From a virus, in the IMG/VR virus record IMGVR_UViG_3300033149_006229, positions 1 to 21,940 of that record: 21,940 bases of DNA. The stretch is one strand, 5' to 3'. The notes below the pieces were generated by a model. That model saw only the letters and a program-made list of their open reading frames with translations. It did no database searches and was not told the origin of the DNA. A program made the translations under genes and the position numbers. Of this stretch, positions 2,599-21,940 are shown one piece after another; the stretch's first letter is position 1, and every line of letters starts with the position of its first letter.

Positions 2599-2874
2599 AT
2601 GGCGACTATAGCGGCTCATCCTTTTATTTCTGCGTTTGTGGCTGCTTCTACGGCTGCGGCAGGAGCCCAAGCTTATCAGGCAGGAAAAGTTAAAAAATCC
2701 CCTTCTATTCCCACTATTCTTACGCCTTCACCGACAGAAATCAAAGAGGAAGAAGTCAAAGAAAAGGAAAAAACAAGAATACGCAGAGGGGCAGTCCAAT
2801 CAACGATTCTTACCAGCGCCCGGGGAATATTAGAACCTGCAACCGTAAAGCGCAAAGTTCTTTTAGGGGAATAA
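2599..2874 (+). CDS. Small conserved phage protein with C-terminal LLGE motif
   Basis: 91 residues, starting at ATG 2599 behind GAGGTG. The N-terminus (about residues 8-27, ISAFVAASTAAAGAQAYQAG) is alanine-rich and hydrophobic and could insert in a membrane. The middle is a charged Glu/Lys linker (about 46-60). The C-terminus, RRGAVQSTILTSARG then ATVKRKVLLGE, matches a pattern I recognise from small proteins coded beside the terminase and portal of many podoviruses (an ILT..RG stretch followed by LLG). Their function is not firmly established; they are usually listed as virion or head-associated hypothetical proteins. It sits between terminase and portal with a 3-base gap to the portal gene, consistent with co-translation. 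An overlapping frame at 2636 is a shadow of this gene. Confidence 0.8.
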   Translation: MATIAAHPFISAFVAASTAAAGAQAYQAGKVKKSPSIPTILTPSPTEIKEEEVKEKEKTRIRRGAVQSTILTSARGILEPATVKRKVLLGE

Positions 2875-2877
2875 CCT

Positions 2878-4494
2878 ATGAATATAGAAAATCTAATCAG
2901 ATTGTTTGAGAGATTAAAAAGTGCCCGTGCTACTCATGAAAGCCATTGGCAGGAAATAACCGATTATTTTCTGCCGACAAAGGCTACTATTACCAAGCAA
3001 AGAACTCCTGGGCAAAAACTGCGCATAGATAAATATGATTCTACACCTGTGGATAGTCTGCAGGTATTTGCCGCCGGATTGCATAGTTATCTTACTAATC
3101 CGGCCTCTCGCTGGTTTAATCTCGGCATAAGAGAAAAAGAATTAGCTCAGATTAAGGAAGTCAAGGATTTTTTAGCTGTCTGTCAGGAGGAATTATTTCG
3201 GGCTATCAACAACTCCAATTTTAACCAGCAGATACACGAAGGATATATTGACTTCGGCAGTTTCGGAACAAGCTGTATTTATGAGGAAGAGGATTTATTT
3301 GATGATATAAGATTTTTTGCCCGCCCCCCGGCTGAAATATTTATTATGGAAAATGCCCGGGAAGAAATAGATATGCTTTATCGCTACTGCTCTTATACCG
3401 CAAGGCAGGCTTACGAAAAATGGGGCGGCAATGCAGGCGAGAAAGTATTGGCGGCTATCGAAAGTAATAAATATGACGAAAACTTTGATTTTCTGCATTT
3501 GGTTATGCCCAGATACGAAAGGATAGCCGGAAAATTAGACAGTCTGAATAAGCCTTTTGCCTCTTTATATATCGAAATATCGCAGAAAAAACTTGTATCT
3601 CAAAGCGGATATGATGAATTTCCGTTTTTTGTGGCGCGGAATTTAAAATTATCCGGTGAGCCCTGGGGATATTCGCAGTGCATGATAGCCCTGCCTGACG
3701 CCAAGACTTTAAATGCTATGACAAAAACCCTGCTTAAAGGAGCGCAGAAACAGGTTGACCCGCCTATCGTTGTGCCTAATGACGGTTATTTGCTGCCTTT
3801 CCGCATTACTCCCGGAGCCGTGAATATAAAATCCGAGGACACAAAGGAAAAGATTGATGTGCTTAATTTCGGCGGCAATCTTCCTATCGGACTTGAAATG
3901 CAAGAAATTTATCGCACCCAAATCAGGCGGGCTTTGTTTGTAGATTTATTCTTATTCTTTGCTACCCTGCAGAGAGACCCGCAGAAGATGACGGCCACGG
4001 AAGTAAGAGAGCGCATAAACGAGAAAATGCTTATATTAGGTCCTATTTTAGGCAGGTTGATGAATGAACTTTTAGATCCGCTCATCCACAGGACGTTTAA
4101 TATCCTTATGCGCAACGGTAAACTGCCGGAGACGCCGGAGATATTGATAGGCAAAGAATATAAAATCGAATATATCTCGCCATTGGCAAAGGCTCAGAAA
4201 CTATCCGACGCACAAAGCATCAACGATTTTCTTCTGACATTAAAGGGTATGGCGGAAATCAATCCGGAAGTGATAGATAATCTTAACTTTGATAAAACAG
4301 CTCAGGAATTAAGCGAAATTTATAACGTCAATCCGGAAATTTTAAGAAGCGACGATGAAGTGCAGGCAATAAGAGAACAGAGATTGCAGGCTCAGCAGGC
4401 AATGCAGCAGATGGAAATGTTGAAGGCAGGAGCAGGGGCAGCGGTAGATTTATCCCAAGCAGATAAAAACCTAAAAGAGGAGGTGAAGAAATAA
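2878..4494 (+). CDS. Portal (head-to-tail connector) protein
   Basis: 538 residues, the usual length for podovirus connectors of the T7 gp8 type. The portal ring sits at one capsid vertex, nucleates assembly, serves as the DNA channel for the terminase and later holds the tail. Family hallmarks are visible: an N-terminal helix with HWQEITDYFLP (about residues 23-33), then DKYDSTPVDSLQVFAAGLHS followed by WFNLG, the standard opening of the Pfam head-to-tail connecting protein family. The C-terminal 60 residues are Gln-, Ala- and Met-rich (QEQRLQAQQAMQQMEMLKAG) and likely form the helical barrel or crown of the ring. It follows the LLGE protein by 3 bases and ends at the start of the Bbp19-like gene, so the three are probably translated together. 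Confidence 0.93.
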   Translation: MNIENLIRLFERLKSARATHESHWQEITDYFLPTKATITKQRTPGQKLRIDKYDSTPVDSLQVFAAGLHSYLTNPASRWFNLGIREKELAQIKEVKDFLAVCQEELFRAINNSNFNQQIHEGYIDFGSFGTSCIYEEEDLFDDIRFFARPPAEIFIMENAREEIDMLYRYCSYTARQAYEKWGGNAGEKVLAAIESNKYDENFDFLHLVMPRYERIAGKLDSLNKPFASLYIEISQKKLVSQSGYDEFPFFVARNLKLSGEPWGYSQCMIALPDAKTLNAMTKTLLKGAQKQVDPPIVVPNDGYLLPFRITPGAVNIKSEDTKEKIDVLNFGGNLPIGLEMQEIYRTQIRRALFVDLFLFFATLQRDPQKMTATEVRERINEKMLILGPILGRLMNELLDPLIHRTFNILMRNGKLPETPEILIGKEYKIEYISPLAKAQKLSDAQSINDFLLTLKGMAEINPEVIDNLNFDKTAQELSEIYNVNPEILRSDDEVQAIREQRLQAQQAMQQMEMLKAGAGAAVDLSQADKNLKEEVKK

Positions 4495-6745: not shown

Positions 6746-7174
6746 ATGGCTACTGCTTATGGAGCAAACAAAACTAAGGCCTTGACGCCGACCGGCGCAA
6801 ATATTCTTGAACCCGGTCAGCTCGGCGGAAAAGTCAGAGTAATGACTGATACTTATGAGGCCTCGTCATTAGCGGCAGGTTCGACTATCTATATGGGCAA
6901 CACTTTGCCGGTAGGGGCAAGGATATTAAACGTTATTCTTGCTTTTGACGCTTTGGGCAGCGCAACTATTTCTGTCGGCGATTCTACTACCACCGATAGA
7001 TATATTGCGGCAACAGACGTTTCCTCAGCGGGTATGGTAGATATGGCCGAAGGCAGTAAAATAGACGGTTTGCTGTATGAGATAACTTCTACGACCAGAG
7101 ATATCATTCTTACTACAGCATCCGCGGCTATTACCGGCACCGTGCATTTGATAGTGTTTTATACCGCAGAATAA
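6746..7174 (+). CDS. Probable capsid decoration or head-associated structural protein
   Basis: 142 residues, starting at ATG 6746 behind GGGAGG. It lacks charged clusters and is rich in Gly, Ala, Thr and Ser, as virion beta-sandwich proteins are. The pattern AAGSTIYMGNTLPVGARILN followed by LGSATISVGDS is one I associate with proteins coded immediately downstream of podovirus capsid genes. Those are detected in virions and probably decorate the head, but an assigned role is not certain. It is followed by a strong hairpin terminator, so it appears to close the head-gene transcript together with the capsid gene. Confidence 0.6.
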   Translation: MATAYGANKTKALTPTGANILEPGQLGGKVRVMTDTYEASSLAAGSTIYMGNTLPVGARILNVILAFDALGSATISVGDSTTTDRYIAATDVSSAGMVDMAEGSKIDGLLYEITSTTRDIILTTASAAITGTVHLIVFYTAE

Positions 7175-7182
7175 AGTTAATC

Positions 7183-7209
7183 GGGAGAGACTTTAAATTA
7201 GTCTCTCCC
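7183..7209 (+). terminator. Hairpin terminator after the head genes
   Basis: A perfect 10-base stem, GGGAGAGACT with AGTCTCTCCC, closes a seven-base loop (TTAAATT). It is followed by C and a T-containing but imperfect tail (TTACTTTG). The stem is the strongest in the window. It lies 8 bases after the decoration gene stop and before the accessory island, so it likely lowers read-through and keeps capsid transcripts in excess over downstream genes. Confidence 0.7.
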
Positions 7210-7235: not shown

Positions 7236-7400
7236 ATGCCAAAAGCATTTGAAAACTGTGTATCCGGCGGAGGCCGAGTCAGAACCGTGACAGGACCGAA
7301 TAAACTGCTCGGTCTGAAAAAAGGTCAATACCGCCATATCTGCTTCTTGAAAGGCAAAAGCTTTCTCGGAGAAGTTAAAACCAAACAAAAGGAGAGTTAA
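7236..7400 (+). CDS. Small basic phage protein, 54 residues
   Basis: ATG 7236 follows GTGAGG at 7225-7230 and the frame runs to TAA 7398-7400, just before the next gene's ATG at 7403. The protein is basic and compact: CVSGGGRVRTVTGPNK, then KKGQYRHICF, then KGKSFLGEVK. This pattern (GGRVRT near the N-terminus, a Tyr-Arg strand, and a final GEVK) resembles small hypothetical proteins I associate with environmental phages near head genes; function is unknown. The two Cys residues could bind metal or be incidental. Good ribosome site, spacing and codon use support it as real despite its size. Confidence 0.7.
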   Translation: MPKAFENCVSGGGRVRTVTGPNKLLGLKKGQYRHICFLKGKSFLGEVKTKQKES

Positions 7401-7402
7401 TT

Positions 7403-7774
7403 ATGAATAAGTTTAAAAGATTGCTTTTAGCGCTGATATTGGTGATTTTTATGATCGCACCTTGTTTTGCTCAGGCTCGTTATGGCTTGACGGTTACTCC
7501 GGTTGCAACCGATACTGCAAGCGCATTGGGAGCCGGAACCTGGGTATATGGGATTGGTATTTATGCCTCAAGCGCAGCTGCTGCCATAGGCATTTATGAT
7601 ACTGCTACTCTTGGCGCGGCAAGCAATACCAATGTAAAAGGCGAAGCAGGTCAAGCGACTCAGTATGTATCGACTACCGTATGGTTTGAAAAACCCATAT
7701 ATTTTTCTACTGCGGTTACGGCAATAGTCAACAACGGCGTAGGATTTATTTACAGCGGTCCGGAGCCTAATTAA
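7403..7774 (+). CDS. Exported phage protein with Sec signal peptide, structural-type domain
   Basis: 123 residues starting at ATG 7403 behind GGAGAG. Residues 1-25 form a textbook Sec signal: basic FKR, the hydrophobic run LLLALILVIFMIAP, then CFAQA with cleavage expected after residue 23 or 25. No lipobox is present. The mature part has no Cys and is rich in Ala, Gly, Ser and Thr. It contains GIGIYASSAAAAIGIYDTAT and a C-terminal EKPIYFSTAVTAIVNNGVGF, resembling beta-sandwich domains of phage head or tail accessory proteins (a 'Pi.F...' strand near the end). A signal peptide on such a domain is odd, since virions assemble in the cytoplasm. It may act in the periplasm or outer membrane. It stands between the 54-residue protein and the O-antigen ligase-like gene. 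Confidence 0.75.
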   Translation: MNKFKRLLLALILVIFMIAPCFAQARYGLTVTPVATDTASALGAGTWVYGIGIYASSAAAAIGIYDTATLGAASNTNVKGEAGQATQYVSTTVWFEKPIYFSTAVTAIVNNGVGFIYSGPEPN

Positions 7775-7806
7775 AATTAAAAAAATCGGAGCGAGGAATA
7801 TAATGA

Positions 7807-8895
7807 ATGAATGAAAAAAGACTGTTTGATACAGCTCTAAAAGCATTCCTATTCCTTTCTCCGATTTTCTTTTTTAAAGATTTTAGGCTAAGTTTCGCGC
7901 AAGGATTATTTTTTGTTTTTGCGTCTTTTGTATTATTCGCTATAGCCTTGACTATAATTCCAAAGCGGCAATTTCAATCAGGTTGGCTTGGTTTGATTCT
8001 GCTTTGGGCGTTCATTGATATATTTGCCACTTATAACCCTAATCCGGCAGCGGTATGGTTTAATTTCTGGCTTGCCTGTGCAGGATTTATCTATATCTTT
8101 GCAGGTATGCTGTTATTTTATACAATCTATTGTTATGCAGATAGACCGGAGATATATATAAAACCGATTTTGGCTGTGTGTATTTTGAACTTGATTTTAA
8201 CTATAGCGCAGATAACCGGCCATGATTTTATGTATAAATATGCACCAAGTATATGCGGGTTTATGGGGATAAGCTCACAACTAGGTCAGTATTCGGCTTT
8301 AAGTCTGCCTATTGTATTTTTTATAAACCCTTGGCTGACTTTGATACCGATAATCACTTTGGCTTGTGCTAAATCAATCAGCGCTATTTTGGCCGGTTTT
8401 GCCGGAATGATATTTTTGACCTGGAAACGACAGATTAAAGTCGGCATAGTCATCACAATAGGGCTTATTTTGGCCATAATGGGCGTTTTAAGGCACGATT
8501 ATGTGTTAAATAAGTGGAAATGCAGGCCGATAGTCTGGGAGCGTGTATTAAGGCTTTCTATGGAAAAACCGTATTTAGGGCACGGATACAGAAGTTTTAA
8601 TAATGCCGATATAGGCATTGGCTATACGGATTTTACCAGAGTTCATAATGATTGGCTGCATACGGCAGAAGAGCTAGGCTGGCCGATGGTAATATTTGCA
8701 GGGGGATTTTTGATAAACCTCTGGCGTAAATTCAGGGCAAAGCAAAATAAAGATAAATTTACCTATTTTTTAACTGCCTCAATATTGATAATTCTGGTTA
8801 ATTGTTCGGGGCAAACACTTTTGAGATATGCGAATATTGCGGGAACTTTTATTGTATTATTAAGTTTTTTAATGATTAAACTTAACGAGGTGTAA
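7807..8895 (+). CDS. O-antigen ligase/polymerase-like membrane protein (Wzy_C superfamily)
   Basis: 362 residues, almost wholly hydrophobic, with roughly ten membrane segments. The loop in the last third carries the superfamily signature: RPIVWERVL (Arg240), then YLGHGYRSFN (residues 256-265), then HNDWLHTAEELGW (His280). In WaaL and Wzy enzymes the matching Arg and His lie in the periplasmic loop and serve transfer of lipid-linked glycan onto lipid A core or a growing chain. The length is somewhat short for the family (about 400). I chose ATG 7807, about 10 bases after GAGG; ATG 7803 gives only three codons. Its end, AACGAGGTGTAA, contains the ribosome site of the tail tube A gene, so it is well woven into the operon. 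Substrate is unknown. A tail-gene neighbourhood suggests surface-glycan alteration during infection (inference). Confidence 0.85.
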   Translation: MNEKRLFDTALKAFLFLSPIFFFKDFRLSFAQGLFFVFASFVLFAIALTIIPKRQFQSGWLGLILLWAFIDIFATYNPNPAAVWFNFWLACAGFIYIFAGMLLFYTIYCYADRPEIYIKPILAVCILNLILTIAQITGHDFMYKYAPSICGFMGISSQLGQYSALSLPIVFFINPWLTLIPIITLACAKSISAILAGFAGMIFLTWKRQIKVGIVITIGLILAIMGVLRHDYVLNKWKCRPIVWERVLRLSMEKPYLGHGYRSFNNADIGIGYTDFTRVHNDWLHTAEELGWPMVIFAGGFLINLWRKFRAKQNKDKFTYFLTASILIILVNCSGQTLLRYANIAGTFIVLLSFLMIKLNEV

Positions 8896-8896
8896 A

Positions 8897-9463
8897 ATGC
8901 CGAGTAGCGCAACGCAGACAAGTATATGCAATTTAGCCTTGCGGGCAGTAGGGGCGGCAAGGATAACGTCTATAAACGACAGCGTAGAGTCAGCCCGGGT
9001 TTTAAACGATGTATATACTTTAATTCGGGAAGAGGTCCTTTCCGCACATCCTTGGAATTTCGCTTTAAGGCGGGCTTCTCTTACCCAATTGGATGAGACG
9101 CCTGAATTTGACTATGACTATGCCTATCAGCTTCCTACCGGCTGTTTAAGGGTAATCAAGATGTCGGTAGATAACGCTGAATTTAAAATAGAGGAAGATA
9201 AACTATTGACCGATGAAACCTCGGCCAAAATCCTTTATATTACCAATGTTACTTCTTCGGCGGATTTCAGCCCGGCTTTTGTTAGCGCATTTGCGGCAAG
9301 ACTGGCGGCTGAGATAGCTTATCCTTTAACTAATTCCCAAACATTGGCGGATAGTAAATATTCGGAATATCTTAAAAAATTAAAAACAGCCAAGAGCATC
9401 GACGGTCAAGAAGGCAGCAAAGAACCGATTGAAGATATTAGCTGGATTGACGACAGAAAATAA
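8897..9463 (+). CDS. Tail tubular protein A (T7 gp11-like)
   Basis: 188 residues, close to T7 gp11. This protein binds beneath the portal as the adaptor ring to which the nozzle and fibres attach. The family pattern is clear: ICNLALRAVGAARITSIND, then ARVLNDVYTLIREEVLSAHP, then WNFALRRASL (about residues 11-63). AYQLPTGCLRVIKM follows at about 76-89. The ribosome site GAGGTG lies inside the end of the ligase-like gene, one base before its stop, which suggests coupled translation. The next gene starts 3 bases after its stop. Confidence 0.92.
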   Translation: MPSSATQTSICNLALRAVGAARITSINDSVESARVLNDVYTLIREEVLSAHPWNFALRRASLTQLDETPEFDYDYAYQLPTGCLRVIKMSVDNAEFKIEEDKLLTDETSAKILYITNVTSSADFSPAFVSAFAARLAAEIAYPLTNSQTLADSKYSEYLKKLKTAKSIDGQEGSKEPIEDISWIDDRK

Positions 9464-9466
9464 ATT

Positions 9467-11431
9467 ATGCCAAGAACTACGATTATTCATACTACATTTT
9501 CAAGAGGAGAACTATCTCCTTATTTAGACGGCCGCATTGATATCGAAGCTTATTTCAATGGCGCTAAAACCGTTGAAAACTTTTTTATTTTACCTTACGG
9601 CGGTTTAATGCGTCGGCCAGGCACTTATTACGTGGCTGAGGTTAAGGATAGTTCCAAAGCCACGCGCCTTATTTCTTTTCAATTCTCCACTACACAATCC
9701 TATATTATAGAAATCGGCCACCAATATATGCGTTTTTACAAAGACCGGGGGCAGATCATAGACGGCGGCGATCCTTATGAGATAGCTACTTCTTATGATG
9801 AATCGGATATTTTCGATTTACAGTTCGTTCAGGATAAAGATACGATGTGGATTGTCCATCCTTCGTATAAGCCGCAGAAACTTACCCGCACCGGCCATAC
9901 CAGTTGGACATTAAGCAATTATACTCCTACCGCCGATCCGTTTACCGGTTCAGATGACTATCCTTCCTGCGTTACCATTTTTGAACAAAGATTGATTTTT
10001 GCCAACAGCAATAATGATCCGCAGAAAATATGGACTACCAAATCAGGCGATTATGATGATATGACTACCGGTTCAAATGACGATGATGCAATGACTTATA
10101 TTTTGGGTTCGCAGCAAGTTCATGCGATACGCTGGCTGGCCTCCGGAAAACTTATTTTAATAGGCACATTAGGCGGCGTATTCAGCCTTAGTTCAGGCAA
10201 TAATCAGGATCCGCTTACTCCGACTAATGTTACAGTGAAATTAGAAAGCGCTTATGGAGCGATAGGCAAAATGCCCAAAAAGATAGGCAATCTCCTTTAT
10301 TATCTGCAAAGAAATGCAAAGATACTGCGTGAAATAGGCTATTCTTATGAGATAGATGAATATCAGGCCAATGAGGCAAGTATTTTATCAGAGCATATTA
10401 CCGGCGACGGCATAGTGGATATGGATTATCAGCAGGCACCTTTTAATATGCTGTGGCTTGTGCGGTCTGACGGAGAAATTGCTACCATGACCGTGCAGTT
10501 AGAACAAAAAGTCAAGGGCTGGGCTAGACAGATAACAGAAGGCGATTTTGAAAGCGTGGCAGTTATTCCCGGCGACAGCTCGGATGACGAAGTATGGTTT
10601 ATAGTGAAAAGATACATTGACGGCTCTTATGTCCGTTATGTGGAATATTTAAAGCCCATAACTTTTGATGAGCAGGAAGATGCGTATTTTGTTGATTGCG
10701 GTCTTACGCTGGATAATCCGATAACCATCTCCGGCGCAACAACCGCCAATCCTGTAGTAATTACCGCCACCAGCCACGGATTATCTGACGGCGATACAAT
10801 CACCATAAGAAATATAATAGGAATGACGGAATTAAACGGCGGAGTATATAAAGTCGCCAATAAAACCGATGATACTTTTGAATTACAGGATACTGACGGA
10901 AATGATATCGACGGCACTGGTTACACGACTTATATTTCAGACGGAGAGGCGAGAAAAAGGGTAATTTCGATATCCGGATTAGACCATTTAGAAGGCGAAA
11001 GCGTCTCGATCTTAGGCGATGGAGCTGTTAATCCCGAAGAAACGGTATCCAGCGGAGAAATAACTATTGATAACGCGTCAGGCGAAGTTCATGCAGGATT
11101 GCAATATATATCAACTCTGCAGACCATGCGCATTGAAATAGGCACAGAACAGGGCACGGCACAGAGCAAACTTAAAAAACTCAGCAAAGTAGTCATAAGA
11201 TTATTTGAAAGCGTAGGTTGCAAAATAGGCGATGAAAACAGTCAGGATACAGTAATGTTTCGTTCCACCGATGACGAAACAGATGAGATGATACCTCTTT
11301 TTACGGGAGACAAGACAATACCTTTCAGGGGCGATTGGGGCAAAGATACTTTTGTAGTAGTTAAACAGGAGGATCCCCTGCCTCTTAATATACTGGCTTT
11401 AATAAATTACATAACGGTAGAACATGGCTGA
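9467..11431 (+). CDS. Tail tubular protein B (tail nozzle, T7 gp12-like) with E1-FCCH-like insert
   Basis: 654 residues, shorter than T7 gp12 (about 790). It forms the tail nozzle that closes the DNA channel. The N-terminus is diagnostic: TTFSRGELSPYLDGRIDIEA then NFFILPYGGLMRRPGTYYVA. A middle segment with YLQRNAKILREIGYSYEIDE is also typical. Around residues 425-495 lies a compact segment (PVVITATSHGLSDGDTITI ... GGVYKVANKTDDTFELQDTD) that matches the small beta-barrel called ubiquitin-activating-enzyme FCCH-like, known from phage tail proteins, here probably a surface insert. No clear ribosome site precedes ATG 9467, so translation probably relies on coupling to the tail tube A stop 3 bases upstream. 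Confidence 0.92.
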   Translation: MPRTTIIHTTFSRGELSPYLDGRIDIEAYFNGAKTVENFFILPYGGLMRRPGTYYVAEVKDSSKATRLISFQFSTTQSYIIEIGHQYMRFYKDRGQIIDGGDPYEIATSYDESDIFDLQFVQDKDTMWIVHPSYKPQKLTRTGHTSWTLSNYTPTADPFTGSDDYPSCVTIFEQRLIFANSNNDPQKIWTTKSGDYDDMTTGSNDDDAMTYILGSQQVHAIRWLASGKLILIGTLGGVFSLSSGNNQDPLTPTNVTVKLESAYGAIGKMPKKIGNLLYYLQRNAKILREIGYSYEIDEYQANEASILSEHITGDGIVDMDYQQAPFNMLWLVRSDGEIATMTVQLEQKVKGWARQITEGDFESVAVIPGDSSDDEVWFIVKRYIDGSYVRYVEYLKPITFDEQEDAYFVDCGLTLDNPITISGATTANPVVITATSHGLSDGDTITIRNIIGMTELNGGVYKVANKTDDTFELQDTDGNDIDGTGYTTYISDGEARKRVISISGLDHLEGESVSILGDGAVNPEETVSSGEITIDNASGEVHAGLQYISTLQTMRIEIGTEQGTAQSKLKKLSKVVIRLFESVGCKIGDENSQDTVMFRSTDDETDEMIPLFTGDKTIPFRGDWGKDTFVVVKQEDPLPLNILALINYITVEHG

Positions 11432-19898: not shown

Positions 19899-20342
19899 AT
19901 GAAAAAAGTATTTTTAGCATTACTTGGTATACTGCTTGCAACAAGTTTAGTTTTTGCAGCAGCGGATAACAAAACTATTATTTCTTCAACTACGTTAGAT
20001 GATGATCCGACTTCGGTCACATCAAGCACTTTTAATATTCAGGATTACGAAAAAGTTGCTTTTTTCGTTAGCTATGACGAAACAGAGGTTGGTAATTCGG
20101 TTAGCATAGCCATAACGCTTGATGTATCCTATGACGGCTCTAATTGGATTGACGCTTCTTTTTATGACTATGGTGGCGGAACGACATTCCAGACAACCGA
20201 ATCATTAACCGCTGATGGCTGGTATGTTTGCTGGTTCGAACCTGATTTAAACGTGCCATACGTGCGTATGGTGATAACGGCTACCAATACAGACAGCGAT
20301 GATTTAGCGGTAGTAACAGCATATTTAGCAGGTGTAAAATAA
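19899..20342 (+). CDS. Exported phage protein with Sec signal peptide, beta-rich
   Basis: 147 residues from ATG 19899, behind AAGGAGG at 19886-19892. An upstream in-frame start at 19788 lies deep inside the fibre gene with no ribosome site and would hide the signal peptide, so I reject it. Residues 1-22 read MKKVFLALLGILLATSLVFA then AA, an ideal Sec signal, with cleavage after residue 20 or 22. The mature part is acidic and beta-rich, with NSVSIAITLDVSYDGSNWID (about residues 66-85), a 'DGSNW' pattern found in virion structural proteins, and a C-terminal VPYVRMVITATNTDSDDLAV. It sits just after the fibre gene. Possibly a periplasmic or surface partner of the fibre, or an exported decoy; no family can be named. 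Confidence 0.75.
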   Translation: MKKVFLALLGILLATSLVFAAADNKTIISSTTLDDDPTSVTSSTFNIQDYEKVAFFVSYDETEVGNSVSIAITLDVSYDGSNWIDASFYDYGGGTTFQTTESLTADGWYVCWFEPDLNVPYVRMVITATNTDSDDLAVVTAYLAGVK

Positions 20343-20825: not shown

Positions 20826-21098
20826 ATGCCTGAATTAATGGATTATACCTATAAATTCCATAAGCAGGGAGACCATCTGGTCATCTTTCATATTTACAGA
20901 CAAGATTCGTCTTCGTCTTATCCGAGATATTATCAGTATATCAACGCTGACGGAAAATGGTATATAATGCGCGCTTCGAAGTCAGGCGACGTAACTACTT
21001 ACGAATATTATCTGCCAAGCGACTACAGTAATATTGATACTGACTGGACAAACCGGGCAAGCAAAACTTATTCACGGTTCGATGAGGTATTCGGATGA
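20826..21098 (+). CDS. Small aromatic phage protein of unknown function
   Basis: 90 residues behind AAAAGGGA. It is rich in Tyr (about one in seven) and Ser: TYKFHKQGDHLVIFHIYRQD, then SSYPRYYQYINADGKWYIM, then TDWTNRASKTYSRFDEVFG. The alternating pattern suggests a small beta-sheet protein. No family is recognised. The gene ends in an ATGA overlap with the next signal-peptide gene, so the two are translationally linked and may work together in the fibre or host-surface region of the operon. Confidence 0.7.
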   Translation: MPELMDYTYKFHKQGDHLVIFHIYRQDSSSSYPRYYQYINADGKWYIMRASKSGDVTTYEYYLPSDYSNIDTDWTNRASKTYSRFDEVFG

Positions 21099-21940
21099 AA
21101 AAAATATTGTTTACGATTTTACTATGCCTTAGTTTTCCAATTTGCCTATATGCCGAAGATATGGTTATTAATCCTGATACAGGCAATTTAGACATTGTCT
21201 ATGACCAAGCTAAAGAGATAAATACAGATACTTCTAATTTTGACAATAGTCTATCTGCTGCTGATGATACTGTGCAAAAGGCTTTAGATACATTGGATAA
21301 TTTTACCGAAGCCGATACTCTCGACTCTGTAGCAGATAGAGACTCAACTACTGACCAAGCGTTAACTACTGGCGGTATTACCTCAAATGGAAACGTAACA
21401 ATAGCCGATAATTATATACTCTCTCTTGGCGGCGAGGCTACTAATGAAGTCGGAATAAAATTTATAAACGATTACCCTACTATTTACCTTGATAAAGCCT
21501 TAGGGGGCGGAGCTGGTGCTTGGGCAAGGCTTAACATTTATGCCCCGCTGGAAAAAGGTAGCGGAATTGCTGCTTTTGCCGATGTAGGGGAAGATGGCTC
21601 TGGGGGTTGGGCACCTTATTTTCAGATAGTCCCAGATTATGTTAATACTACTGTGCGATTTCAGGCGGATACTCCTATTTTATTTTTCCCCGATGACCAA
21701 TCGGATTGGGCTTATCGCTGGCAGTTTACAACTAGTTCTGATATACCCGAACTTGCTTGTATGGGGGGTAATGATTGTAAAATAACTTCTAGCTCTGGAA
21801 ATATAAACTTTGATGATGAGAACCTAACCACTACGGGCACGGTGACTGCCGACCATATAGTTGAAACGAGTCCTACCCTGTTAAAACTAGACCAGACCAC
21901 GCCGCAGACAATTTCTAACGGAATACCCCTGCTGAATACC
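21095..21940 (+). CDS. Fibre-like protein with Sec signal peptide (partial, runs off window)
   Basis: ATG 21095 overlaps the previous stop by 4 bases (ATGA) and follows GAGG at 21084-21087. The frame stays open to the window end (282 codons), so the C-terminus is missing. Residues 1-20 read MKKILFTILLCLSFPICLYA, a Sec signal with cleavage expected before Glu21. The following part carries fibre-type motifs: residues 47-70 contain NFDNSLSAADDTVQKALDTL, a pattern frequent in phage tail fibres, then a beta-rich part with poly-Gly turns (LGGGAGAW, GEDGSGGW), SSSGNINFDDENLTTTGTVT near residue 231, and a C-terminal LDQTTPQTISNGIPLL. This combines an export signal with tail-fibre motifs. A real exported adhesin, a cargo, or a chance N-terminus are all possible; the signal is too clean for chance. 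Confidence 0.78.
   Translation, partial: MKKILFTILLCLSFPICLYAEDMVINPDTGNLDIVYDQAKEINTDTSNFDNSLSAADDTVQKALDTLDNFTEADTLDSVADRDSTTDQALTTGGITSNGNVTIADNYILSLGGEATNEVGIKFINDYPTIYLDKALGGGAGAWARLNIYAPLEKGSGIAAFADVGEDGSGGWAPYFQIVPDYVNTTVRFQADTPILFFPDDQSDWAYRWQFTTSSDIPELACMGGNDCKITSSSGNINFDDENLTTTGTVTADHIVETSPTLLKLDQTTPQTISNGIPLLNT

Follow-up and report, generated by a model that had tools for sequence, protein, structure and literature searches.

The 21,940-nucleotide viral DNA stretch analyzed here (IMG/VR record IMGVR_UViG_3300033149_006229, hereafter the window) is a linear 21.9-kb fragment carrying podovirus-type phage late genes, among which a gene for a small exported protein (positions 7403–7774) is followed by a gene for a WaaL-fold, Wzy_C-family multi-pass membrane protein (7807–8895, hereafter Wzy). 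The two genes form a cassette and probably function jointly. Our computations show the family and fold of the enzyme, the synteny, pairing and co-variation of the two genes, and their mobility as one unit. By analogy with bacterial enzyme–pilin pairs, we consider it an evenly balanced proposition that the pair is a phage protein O-glycosylation system comprising an enzyme and its cognate acceptor. Somewhat less than even credence goes to the wider proposal that uncultured tailed phages from several capsid lineages have protein O-glycosylation systems of their own. These systems, each an exported β-structured protein with a dedicated WaaL-fold oligosaccharyltransferase, would be exchanged as matched cassettes at the capsid–tail junction and would transfer host glycans to a phage protein located beyond the cytoplasm in late infection. 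In the open-access literature, we found no earlier account of diverse phages that link an enzyme acting on envelope glycans to their head genes and to a partner that is exported.

Pairing and co-variation of the exported gene with wzy

All the loci compared are metagenomic fragments. A signal-peptide gene lies directly upstream of wzy in 22 of 24 head-region Wzy_C loci according to a blind heuristic and in 23 of 24 by eye, the exported neighbor that the heuristic missed being that of locus L038; the background among other genes of the same loci is 8 signal-peptide-like genes out of 197 (4%). The loci share descent and a binomial p-value for the pairing is therefore not to be taken at face value. 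The Wzy-first loci in this set were retrieved by Wzy sequence alone. The interval between the major capsid protein and tail tube genes holds an exported gene in 10 of 11 loci with Wzy (11 by eye), as opposed to 14 of 158 Wzy-free loci. A scan with the Wzy alignment added phages of other capsid types (including Mu gpT-like, L212; phrog_9953, L219 and L222; unassigned, L214, L216 and L218), nearly all with an exported gene immediately before wzy, just past the capsid genes. The L218 Wzy, which falls short of the Wzy_C threshold (E 0.01), was included by similarity and tree only, and in L222 a small lipoprotein-like gene is directly upstream of wzy, with a larger exported protein encoded one gene further up. 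The pairing count left out L022, L229 and L230, whose Wzy_C-like genes are of a separate kind. By eye, these are followed by a small TPR-like membrane protein (L022, 6427–7855; L229, 3830–5525; L230, 1212–2937), and in L229 the two genes sit outside the structural genes.

Clustering by sequence after removal of 24 residues resolves the exported proteins into family A (nine members), family B (seven), family C (five) and two singletons, and thus into at least three unrelated families. Each family corresponds to exactly one Wzy clade (supports of 100/100, 100/99 and 98/98), and placing the families on the Wzy tree takes two changes, the minimum, a value that none of 200 shuffles attained. Exported proteins of families A and B can be aligned in the signal peptide alone, yet their Wzy proteins are clearly homologous. 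The capsids tell a different story: members of families A and B intermingle on their tree, which forces at least three changes, the window (family A) is sister to L002 (family B; 97/91), and family C occurs with phrog_3437, Mu gpT-like and unassigned capsids. Indeed, the L002 capsid is 73% identical to that of the window, yet at the same site the exported protein is unrelated and the Wzy has diverged; L126, L133 and L208 carry this second cassette type as well. One clade per family on the Wzy tree, combined with interleaving on the capsid tree, indicates that the pair has been exchanged as a matched unit. A small 54-residue gene (MPKAFENCVSGGGRVRT..., 7236–7400 in the window) supports this mobility, since it precedes the exported gene in the window and lies 3′ of wzy in L002, L003, L005, L039 and L040; its shifted position relative to the cassette implies that the exported and wzy genes move or insert as a block.

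Family, fold and residues of the two proteins

The window Wzy (362 residues) belongs to the WaaL/Wzy_C family and fold. The preliminary description of this DNA had predicted a Wzy_C match, which is clear for the relatives and sub-threshold for the window protein taken alone: the latter scores 23.9 bits against PF04932 (E 3.9e-5), under the Pfam cut-off of 31.7 bits, whereas all 14 core relatives (14/14) reach E <= 0.01 and several of them score above the cut-off. These include orthologues sharing 41–54% identity with the window protein, among them that of L038 (54% identical, 50.7 bits). The Wzy_C region comprises residues 182–296 (8350–8694) and holds a predicted periplasmic Arg/His loop (about residues 230–291). 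An AlphaFold model built from eight phage orthologues is of moderate confidence, with a mean predicted local distance difference test score (pLDDT) of 60. Its closest PDB structure is the WaaL ligase determined by electron cryo-microscopy (7tpg_B; Z 17.4, root-mean-square deviation 4.8 over 326 residues), with SEDS glycosyltransferases next and well below it, in agreement with the WaaL-type fold anticipated earlier.

Residues Arg240 and His280 and the GHGYRSFN segment (258–265) are located as the preliminary description had placed them, and the charge pattern predicts that the R240–H280 loop is outside the cytoplasm, consistent with the periplasmic location it had suggested. In E. coli WaaL, the periplasmic loop contains the diphosphate-binding arginines R215 and R288 and the acceptor-activating histidine H338 (PMC3643930). 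Based on motif position rather than on residue-level structural alignment, R240 and H280 probably correspond to R288 and H338; a sequence search against the PDB WaaL for residue mapping returned no match. Across an alignment of 14 phage relatives (nine of family A and five of families B and C), R240 is invariant (14/14) and the histidine of the HN motif, H280 in the window, is present in 11, including all five family B and C members. H285 is invariant in all nine family-A members.

None of the 14 Wzy proteins falls in a PHROG family and none has an NCBIfam assignment. Searches of 50,697 phage records with the Wzy proteins of the window, L038 and L126 and with three exported proteins detected no relative among cultured phages, and a pattern scan of GTDB contigs returned no cellular relatives of Wzy.

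The exported protein of the window, a family-A member of 123 residues, consists of a Sec-type signal peptide (approximately residues 1–24) and a small β-sandwich. We called signal peptides by eye and with a simple rule, and this one is conserved in the nine family-A loci. The AlphaFold model of the family-A protein (pLDDT 84.5) has eight strands, and its matches to nucleoplasmin-like proteins and to viral turret or cement proteins are middling (Z up to 7.3); the fold also resembles uncharacterized phage proteins, and we read no function from these matches. Two more signal-peptide proteins are encoded in the window at 19899–20342 and 21095–21940, the second of which is fiber-like, and similar exported genes occupy the same place in L207 (7363, 8597) and L204 (7203, 8428). 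Exporting fiber-like proteins seems to be a habit of this phage lineage.

Gene order and expression signals at the locus

The late genes of the window comprise terminase, portal, scaffold, capsid, decoration, the 54-residue gene, the exported protein, Wzy, tail tubes A and B and internal virion proteins. The locus is anchored on its left by the major capsid protein (phrog_3437/PF19821, 5834–6703), and the cassette is flanked by a head decoration-like protein (phrog_486, 6746–7174) and a tail tube A-like protein (phrog_394, 8897–9463), all of these features lying on the plus strand. The exported-protein and Wzy open reading frames lie where the preliminary description had set them, and its assignment of the enzyme gene to a late structural operon is supported, the order being decoration, exported protein, Wzy and tail tube A. 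Likewise, tail tube A, whose ATG is at 8897, has its ribosome site (AACGAGGTGTAAAATG) within the final codons of wzy, as had been noticed. A terminator-like hairpin of 10 pairs (10 bp, z −5.4) at 7183–7209 after the decoration gene agrees with the head-gene terminator noted there, although the 54-residue gene between the hairpin and the exported gene had been overlooked.

The order decoration, exported protein and Wzy recurs in eight further viral contigs, whose Wzy proteins are 38–54% identical, and tail tube A comes after Wzy wherever these contigs extend far enough. The search for the same gene order in related contigs, proposed in the preliminary description, was therefore positive, and this conserved synteny in independent contigs rules out the mis-assembled host fragment that had been named there as a possible refutation. 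The nearest cultured phages by capsid protein are Pelagibacter HTVC010P-type podoviruses (46%). In Pelagibacter-type phages (L049, L065, L066, L067, L074, L076, L083 and L089), the site of the cassette in the capsid–tail tube interval is occupied by a conserved, Cys-containing protein of 72–78 residues with a hydrophobic N-terminus (MKYILVLYMCS...). The capsid relatives in GTDB bins span many phyla and mostly belong to contigs of metagenome-assembled genomes, and hence were not used for host assignment.

In nearly all loci, a strong purine-rich ribosome site of the AAGGAGG type precedes the exported gene, the case of L218 being unclear, and wzy start regions have weak sites in most loci, with partial sites in the window and in L038. 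Eight other loci have a strong terminator-type hairpin (z −1.5 to −6.1) between the two genes, which groups the exported protein with the capsid genes and the enzyme with the tail genes; the window hairpin is upstream of both genes and not between them. As read from the DNA, these ribosome sites and hairpins would fit the expectation of an abundant exported protein and a scarce enzyme.

Elsewhere in the window, the large terminase gene (78–2582) is split by an insert that resembles an intein and contains a LAGLIDADG endonuclease domain (PF14528), and by eye the terminase of an unrelated phage (L212, 270–2618) holds a similar insert. Just 5′ of the intein, a perfect 54-bp in-frame tandem duplication (518–626) in the terminase gene may be genuine or may have arisen in assembly. 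An E1_FCCH-like repeat domain (PF16190) is located in tail tube B of the window (9467–11431) and inside tail tube A in L006 (11416–12234) and L007 (6833–7651); judging from this distribution, the domain moves between the two tail tube genes.

Proposed function and relation to known systems

In the mechanism that we propose, the phage would make much of the small exported β-sandwich protein and little of the inner-membrane WaaL-fold, Wzy_C-family transferase. The latter would take a host-made, lipid-linked (undecaprenyl-diphosphate) glycan and attach it in the periplasm to the exported phage protein, in the way that pilins are modified by PglL, TfpO and PilO. The cell would then release or display, late in infection, a glycosylated phage protein that could provide surface masking, superinfection exclusion or, at lysis, a coating or decoy. 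In this scheme, we infer that the enzyme is catalytic, that the host supplies the glycan donor and that the exported protein is the acceptor, as well as the relative expression levels and the purpose.

We favor O-glycosylation of the exported protein because the Wzy clade predicts the exported neighbor, reminiscent of pglL and pilin genes: 21 of 31 pglL genes adjoin pilin genes, their presumed or tested targets, and the A. baylyi ComP pair was put to experimental test (PMC3643930). A cognate pair makes protein O-glycosylation more likely than O-antigen ligation or polymerization for its own sake. The preliminary description had advanced late editing of host O-glycan by a ligase or polymerase, a proposal that we rank second given that the constant partner of the enzyme is an adjacent exported protein, whose family co-varies one to one with the Wzy clade. 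That description had touched only briefly on the exported protein and on virion-associated glycan.

Several observations weigh against protein O-glycosylation. L226 carries the enzyme gene without an exported neighbor and, conversely, L109 has a gene for a family-B-like exported protein of 325 residues (2665–3642), located between those of the decoration protein and of tail tube A, but no Wzy in the capsid–tail tube interval. The first WaaL arginine has no clear counterpart, the R215-like position not being Arg (K189 in the window, by eye), and the putative catalytic histidine, H280, is replaced in three of nine family-A members, by F in L042 and L003 and by N in L005. The PglL_A motif (PF15864) is matched by none of the 14 relatives in Pfam-A, and we therefore do not file the family as PglL; PilO likewise does not have this motif (PMC3643930). 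Within family A, a mirror-tree comparison gives a weak distance correlation between the two genes (r 0.33, p ~0.10). Finally, co-inheritance, as traced in these trees, amounts to partnership and does not make the partner the acceptor.

The main rival, which we regard as possible though on the doubtful side, is that the Wzy_C protein ligates or polymerizes host O-antigen or capsule units late in infection, altering receptors for superinfection exclusion or progeny release, and that the exported protein is a second envelope factor, such as a receptor or glycan binder, instead of an acceptor. It retains this rank because phage Wzy enzymes of such a kind exist: D3-type Wzy-β in P. aeruginosa (PMC4815439) and WzyPh1 of A. 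baumannii prophages (PMC9241936) act in this way, and the family comprises WaaL and Wzy besides PglL. The lineage also carries glycan-acting cargo, as indicated by two Pfam-confirmed GT2 glycosyltransferases accompanied by methyltransferase-like genes between tail tubes A and B of L028 (13678–18043), near the same region, and by a carbamoyltransferase (PF02543, phrog_1601; L205, 589–1653) that the L002 phage encodes upstream of its terminase and that possibly modifies glycans. The known cases, however, sit in prophages or lysogenic cassettes, and neither the one-to-one match of exported family and Wzy clade nor adjacency in 23 of 24 loci would be expected if the acceptor were a host glycan.

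The residue losses listed above would also suit a pair of altered function, with the WaaL-fold protein anchoring the exported protein in the membrane, chaperoning it or inhibiting it (or inhibiting the host ligase) and some members of the family having lost catalysis. We deem this unlikely in view of the invariance of R240 and the retention of the HN motif by the five family B and C members, and H285 could substitute for H280 in family A. The varied cargo found at the capsid–tail tube site of relatives could further suggest that the two genes are passive morons that share no function, were gained together and persist through linkage, or else that they are an artefact of assembly. Such an origin is highly improbable for at least three cassette families found with several capsid types in many contigs and always swapped as a matched pair.

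If protein O-glycosylation is correct, phages use periplasmic protein glycosylation in their late program. To our knowledge, this process is otherwise known only from cells. The clade-matched acceptors would then constitute a natural panel of small enzyme–acceptor pairs for studying target choice by oligosaccharyltransferases. Even if the acceptor is a host glycan, late-infection surface remodeling becomes directly testable.

Among phages, the HTVC010P-type podoviruses are capsid kin of the window, and the 50,697 phage records that include cultured phages hold no detectable relative of the three Wzy and three exported proteins tested. The closest published arrangement that we found is in the Variovorax phage VarioGold, in which a Wzy_C protein and a signal-peptide protein are encoded side by side (VG_p25 and VG_p26); VarioGold is a temperate siphovirus, however, and these genes are on the opposite strand to, and outside, the late genes (PMC9658991). 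Its authors read them as a lysogenic O-antigen ligase cluster and the pairing went unrecognized (PMC9658991).

The PglL, TfpO and PilO systems share with the cassette a Wzy_C membrane enzyme encoded beside, and in the same direction as, an exported protein that varies by clade; for O-oligosaccharyltransferases in general, such adjacency to the acceptor gene is common though not universal. Unlike them, the cassette is phage-borne and embedded in head-gene modules, and its partner is a β-sandwich or fiber-like protein instead of a pilin; it also differs from PglL in the absent PglL_A motif. WaaL (PDB 7tpg; CAZy GT121) resembles the cassette enzyme in overall fold, Wzy_C region and, judged by motif position, a putative periplasmic-loop Arg and (for most members) the His motif, whereas the cassette enzyme lies outside a lipopolysaccharide locus, does not conserve the first catalytic Arg and has a constant exported partner in a late phage operon. 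D3 Wzy-β and WzyPh1 are likewise phage-encoded Wzy-type membrane enzymes, and they act on host lipid-linked glycans. No integrase was noticed in the parts inspected of two longer records, all records being fragments. D3 Wzy-β and WzyPh1 reside in temperate or prophage cassettes, whereas the window enzyme is encoded among late structural genes together with its cognate exported protein.
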